In this document: positions 22,209-49,170 of the stretch, in pieces | How the letters are laid out: every line of letters begins with the position of its first letter | Position numbering within the stretch: position 1 is the stretch's first letter | Notes under the pieces: generated by a model | What the model was told of the DNA's origin: nothing | Seen by the model: only the letters and a program-made list of their open reading frames with translations | Database searches by the model: none | Source: Doris montereyensis | Lineage: Eukaryota; Mollusca; Gastropoda; Nudibranchia; Dorididae | Length of the DNA stretch: 64,000 bases | Assembly: GCA_037039925.1 (NCBI GenBank) | Contig: JAXRKP010000393.1 | Location: 256,501-320,500, forward strand | Reading direction: 5' to 3' | Translations under genes and position numbers: made by a program

Positions 22209-22387
22209 TCATGCATTGTTATCCAGAATAAAGAGCATTTCTGATCTGCCCAATCCAAAACTCTCAAAGCTTGGAGGTCCCCTTCTCCTTCTGCGGGTTC
22301 ACAGGGCAATTTTCTACGAGGGAAATTGGTCATTATTTGAAAGTCATCTGGACAGTCTTGGTGGCAGAATACAAAATAATATAAATA
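22209..22387 (-). CDS. FAF2: FAF2 exon 14 (UBX end, FPRR motif, stop), 1-nt deletion
   Basis: The acceptor is CCTTTTTTCAG. It reads [20 protein letters not shown], with the FPR loop that contacts p97, then leaves frame at a GGGG run. In the other frame it continues [10 protein letters not shown] and then [11 protein letters not shown] followed by TGA, which matches the human PPTLQEAGL and EVLFVQDL region. One extra G makes exactly 60 codons including the stop. Weak ATTAAA-type signals lie downstream on this strand near 22108 and 22026; no AATAAA is obvious. Confidence 0.9.

Positions 22388-49170: not shown

Follow-up and report, generated by a model that had tools for sequence, protein, structure and literature searches.

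Does a stretch of Doris montereyensis DNA in which no single open reading frame (ORF) betrays a gene encode a complete FAF2/UBXD8, and are the breaks in its reading frame damage to the gene or flaws in the assembly? FAF2/UBXD8 is a housekeeping gene whose product helps the cell to pull damaged proteins from membranes. An initial annotation had traced such a gene by hand in the window (the whole 64,000-nucleotide stretch analysed here, contig C2828:256501-320500 of an assembly of 513,438,767 bases in 3500 contigs).

Exon-intron structure of the FAF2 locus

We examined the window by tblastn with FAF2, followed by a purpose-written spliced protein-to-DNA aligner that accepts GT/GC-AG introns in three phases and permits frameshifts; a human FAF2 sequence was the query for tblastn and the first spliced run. 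The spliced alignment of mollusc FAF2 proteins that the initial annotation had proposed as its own test came out in its favour, as Aplysia californica FAF2 scored 1796 against the window. Of 48 shuffled controls made with this protein, none exceeded 207.3 (the best of 24 shuffled proteins; the best of 24 dinucleotide-shuffled DNAs reached 206.9), and the plus strand gave 203.9. FAF2 of Elysia crispata and of Lottia gigantea scored 1787 and 1409, respectively, and returned the same exon structure, save for aligner detours at the frame breaks. The gene lies on the minus strand and runs from an ATG at 49170 to the end of a TGA at 22209, exactly the limits (22209..49170) assigned by hand. Its fourteen exons, 30-179 nt each and 1341 nt summed with the Aplysia query, follow in FAF2 order and are separated by introns of 519 to 8148 nt that are GT-AG in 13 of 13 cases (26 of 26 splice dinucleotides intact), in agreement with the claim of fourteen minus-strand exons with consensus splice sites. 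Joined, they read as 448 residues, the R at the exon 7/8 junction of this composite reading having been filled in from relatives. Exons 2, 5, 6, 7, 9, 10, 12 and 13 below were placed by tblastn and spliced alignment, exon 4 by spliced alignment, exons 1, 3, 8 and 11 by spliced alignment and reading frames, and exon 14 by all three.

Exon 1: 49113..49170, minus strand, 58 nt; ATG at 49170, MEDAQED..., start of UBA; frame break 1 inside
Exon 2: 40896..40964, minus strand, 69 nt; UBA domain
Exon 3: 39593..39707, minus strand, 115 nt; last part of UBA, then linker; frame break 2
Exon 4: 38305..38420, minus strand, 116 nt; hydrophobic, region of the FAF2 membrane hairpin; frame intact
Exon 5: 37737..37766, minus strand, 30 nt; microexon
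Exon 6: 35592..35692, minus strand, 101 nt; start of UAS region (VTDPLGDVV...YQGTYSQ)
Exon 7: 34876..34961, minus strand, 86 nt; UAS region
Exon 8: 34266..34356, minus strand, 91 nt; UAS region; frame break 3 at its first bases
Exon 9: 33554..33655, minus strand, 102 nt; UAS region
Exon 10: 32386..32464, minus strand, 79 nt
Exon 11: 31530..31610, minus strand, 81 nt; frame break 4
Exon 12: 30874..30963, minus strand, 90 nt; charged helix (coiled-coil region) ahead of UBX
Exon 13: 29541..29684, minus strand, 144 nt; first half of UBX
Intron 13: 22388..29540, minus strand, 7153 nt; tandem arrays, plus a pair of long open frames that lack a Pfam match
Exon 14: 22209..22387, minus strand, 179 nt including the stop; second half of UBX, TNFPRRKL (FPR motif); C-terminus ...LDNNA, TGA at 22211-22209; frame break 5

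Several alternative features were considered and set aside. With the Aplysia query the aligner printed 15 segments for the fourteen exons because it bridged frame break 4 by a false zero-length intron at 31576, splitting exon 11 (31610-31530); the GC donor near 31576 is such a detour and was rejected as an intron, as was a one-base exon at 34700 with which the Elysia run bridged break 3, an aligner artefact. A frame break in exon 4 from the run with the human protein was dismissed, this exon being clean with Aplysia FAF2 and an exon 3 end at 39593. An upstream in-frame ATG at 49196 (second frame of exon 1) was rejected as start because the MEDAQ start matches Aplysia and Elysia; translation from it would do away with break 1 and need no assembly error there, but would forfeit the conserved MEDAQ.

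The initial annotation was right that an ORF-based annotation would miss FAF2, yet this is normal for an intron-rich animal gene, in which no single ORF usually reveals the gene. Nor does the locus have the intron-free form of a processed pseudogene, since 13 GT-AG introns are present.

Tandem arrays make up about 30% of the window (19,391 of 64,000 bases in 29 masked intervals). They include 57 copies of a 46-base unit at 1529-4208, adjoining about 79 copies of a 39-base unit at 4218-7318 (a multiple of three, giving long open frames without being genes), as well as, between 59452 and 62144, arrays of (CTT)n, (TTA)n and (TAC)n, and, in intron 1 close behind exon 1, 1.9 copies of a 162-base unit with 96% matches (48744-49055). 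The open frames in intron 13 lie on the minus strand, like FAF2 itself, at 27758-28414 (218 aa) and 26476-27285 (269 aa); neither has a Pfam match at E<=0.01, and we take the former to resemble the C-terminal part of pogo/Tigger-type transposases. On the plus strand, a reverse-transcriptase fragment (PF00078, E 3.5e-9) occupies 58798-59280, and 8935-9498 (no Pfam match) and 10634-10954 are presumably remnants of LINE-type elements. A 21-base core present in three copies with 0-1 mismatches, at 21460-21480 (minus), 39513-39533 (minus) and 57847-57867 (plus), and in none of 100 shuffles, looks like part of a tRNA-derived SINE family; scans of the window for tRNAs (ARAGORN) and for Rfam families at gathering scores found none.

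Identity and relatives of the encoded protein

In a protein search restricted to lengths of 0.55-1.75 times the query, 729 proteins matched the reading at E<=0.001, and the top matches among the best 120 listed, FAF2 of Aplysia californica and of Elysia crispata, are 77% identical to it over 100% of the query. The claim that the locus holds a FAF2 gene complete from ATG to stop is thereby borne out, the match extending over the whole length and the UBA, UAS and UBX regions all being present. Pfam profiles recognise UBA_8 (PF22566, residues 11-55, 60.2 bits, cut-off 26), UBA_4 (PF14555, 40.2 bits, cut-off 21.8), the domain named FAF1 (PF21021, residues 142-213, 46.9 bits, cut-off 27) and UBX (PF00789, residues 363-416, 32.0 bits, cut-off 21). 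FAF1 chain 2ec4 matches residues 139-223, and we take this match and that of PF21021 to mark the UAS region. Hydropathy over 19 residues peaks at 1.52 at residues 106-124, a region conserved among the aligned molluscan FAF2s and presumably the site of the FAF2 membrane hairpin. The parts thus follow in the order UBA, hydrophobic segment, UAS, charged helix and UBX, and exon 14 contains TNFPRR, in which FPR is the p97-contact motif.

The Aplysia protein (P0001) and its Elysia counterpart (P0002, filed as a hypothetical/UBX domain-containing protein) share whole length (447 versus 448 residues), domain order and MEDAQ start with the reading from the window, and their C-termini (DNEA versus DNNA in the window) correspond. 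They differ from it in that the Doris gene carries five frame breaks in the assembly; the remaining amino-acid divergence is like that between Aplysia and Elysia (79.6% identity). Vertebrate FAF2/UBXD8/ETEA is collinear with the reading, as tblastn and spliced alignment of the human protein show, and the vertebrate FAF2 proteins among the matches listed are about 47-54% identical to the reading. Five distinct sequences with solved structures matched, one of them the 'ETEA protein' chain 2dam (E 3.9e-18), which we take to be the FAF2 UBA domain, and the other four FAF1 chains, such as the FAF1 fusion 9yw2_H (E 2.7e-26). The paralogue FAF1 has UBA, UAS and UBX regions in common with the window FAF2; it is longer, with extra ubiquitin-like domains, and lacks the membrane hairpin found in FAF2. 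The name FAF1 is absent from the best 120 of the 729 matches within 0.55-1.75 times the query length.

A FastTree phylogeny of 21 sequences places the window FAF2 in the heterobranch gastropod clade (support 1.000), together with Aplysia, Elysia, Biomphalaria, Lymnaea and others, its exact placement within this clade being less certain. As judged from its sequence, the locus is therefore the FAF2 of a heterobranch gastropod. None of 7 pattern matches in a scan of viral contigs was confirmed as a relative; of 41 in genome contigs, one gave a weak 32% match, which covers residues 358-411 and comes from a proteobacterial bin. A literature search on FAF2, mollusc and UBX domain says little, the word 'mollusc' being absent among the matches listed.

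Copy number and the nature of the frame breaks

A search of the Doris assembly itself with Aplysia FAF2 gave 11 matches at E<=0.01, of which ten lie on contig C2828 at exons 2, 3, 4, 6, 7, 8, 9, 10, 13 and 14, and the eleventh is weak (28% identity, E 0.0016, two stops). No second FAF2 copy was thus seen in the assembly by protein search at this threshold, and the observation that the initial annotation had named as refuting it, a better intact FAF2 locus elsewhere, did not turn up. Exons 1, 5, 11 and 12 are absent from the matches; short exons are missed because the search treats each exon separately and scores only the 50 best candidates. A second intact copy within the assembly should have revealed the same longer exons; a further copy may lie outside it. 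A UBX family search of the same genome gave five matches, all outside the window; it presumably missed the UBX domain of the FAF2 locus because this domain is split between exons 13 and 14. These five places, none of which is among the FAF2 matches, presumably encode other UBX proteins:

G000:C94:37686, UBX-domain stretch
C74:116281, UBX-domain stretch
C1158:137470, UBX-domain stretch
C3264:36827, UBX-domain stretch
C3227:60508, UBX-domain stretch

In the assembly as given, the spliced message does not form one continuous open frame: it has five breaks, four inside exons (1, 3, 11 and 14) and one at the exon 7/8 junction. The hand tracing had reported one discordant junction and three indels; the junction stands, and the indel count has to be raised to four.

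Break 1: exon 1, near 49152-49144, minus strand; in a CT run, net -2
Break 2: exon 3, near 39647-39641, minus strand; beside a C run in a variable proline-rich linker, net -1 or +2
Break 3: start of exon 8, 34356-34355, minus strand; net -1, the only junction with an unfitting phase
Break 4: exon 11, near 31576, minus strand; net -1
Break 5: exon 14, near 22282-22279, minus strand; net -1

By comparison with relatives, four of the five are best read as putative losses of 1-2 bases, the break in exon 3 being ambiguous. Every break has a short run of one or two bases at it or next to it; since runs of two equal bases are common, this carries little weight. The breaks lower the case for a gene that is intact as sequenced, not that for a FAF2 locus.

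To place these breaks in the context of the same assembly, we aligned actin pieces to a human beta-actin sequence. Eight of the 12 actin loci fetched were aligned (L024, L027, L028 and L029 are not in the control), and six of these were counted:

L018: 0 breaks in 1002 nt
L019: 1 break in 1121 nt
L020: 3 breaks in 998 nt
L021: 3 breaks in 1002 nt, one of them called by us from an overlapping false intron, as for FAF2 break 4
L022: 0 breaks in 603 nt
L023: 0 breaks in 507 nt

The total of 7 breaks in 5,233 nt, each of 1-2 bases and confined to three of the six pieces (L019, L020 and L021), leaves out the divergent actin-like copies L025 and L026 (three breaks each in the main exon), along with three breaks inside exons judged spurious: two in first exons of L020, which scored low, and one in L026. 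The protein encoded around the breaks stays close to actin in all cases. The seven include at least one base gain, so the assembly errors are not losses only. The break rate is 3.7 per kb in FAF2 versus 1.3 per kb in actin, an excess that is insignificant (five of 12 events, one-sided P = 0.078) and leans toward real damage.

If the locus were a decaying pseudogene that kept its introns after duplication or loss of function, real mutations would explain both the five breaks in 1341 coding bases and a 2.8-fold rate relative to the actin pieces. Yet the frame that we followed has no stop ahead of the last codon and no nonsense substitution, the splice dinucleotides are all retained, no other FAF2 was seen in the assembly, and similar breaks interrupt actin genes that otherwise encode a nearly unchanged protein. 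Moreover, the reading departs at just 2 of 147 columns that do not vary among 15 other FAF2s (P0003 and those of 14 named molluscs), within the range of these FAF2s themselves (0 to 8 of 146 to 154), and by this comparison it appears free of relaxed constraint. We consider decay quite unlikely. A true loss, in which the breaks are genuine mutations and the animal is left without FAF2, having no second copy to replace its only one, is highly improbable; FAF2 is present in all major animal groups among the matches listed. A merger of two alleles of a functional FAF2, with the breaks as merge points, would fit the frequent mosaic assembly of heterozygous mollusc genomes, but the breaks span 1-2 bases and the flanking coding sequence follows FAF2 with no stretch of lower match, and we give this explanation hardly any credence.

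Nanopore systematic errors are mostly homopolymer indels that, left uncorrected, yield an excess of pseudogenes in bacterial assemblies, according to PMC8011154, and we infer that the Doris assembly is of this error-prone kind. Because actin shares such breaks and constraint is not relaxed, the five FAF2 breaks are most likely small assembly indel errors rather than pseudogene damage. Beyond these indels, which other genes of the assembly also have, the locus is in no way unusual.

Predicted role and use of the locus

Taking this evidence together, we are highly confident that the locus is a normally spliced, probably functional heterobranch FAF2/UBXD8, the only copy seen in the assembly, with breaks that are most likely assembly indels. 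Mammalian FAF2 resides in the membrane of the endoplasmic reticulum (ER) and of lipid droplets. Its UBA domain binds ubiquitin, its hairpin governs membrane localisation and its UBX domain is the docking site for p97/VCP (PMC12422715), while the helix-UBX of FAF1 and FAF2 tethers Ufd1 to the p97 N-domain, speeding p97-driven unfolding (PMC12965308). By analogy, the hairpin of the Doris protein would anchor it in the ER or lipid-droplet membrane, its UBA domain would read ubiquitin, and its helix-UBX would dock on p97/VCP and aid the unfolding of ubiquitylated proteins. Since the FAF2 parts are kept in order, the best reading is that it probably has the same role as mammalian FAF2.

The actin control shows that frame breaks of 1-2 bases occur in conserved genes of this assembly, and because it carries such small indels, its frameshifts should not be taken as gene loss without read support. 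FAF2 here is a conserved animal housekeeping gene of ordinary intron-rich structure that opens no new biological question; the value of the locus lies chiefly in a sound and corrected gene model of a conserved quality-control gene in a gastropod, together with the indel warning that it gives to users of the assembly.
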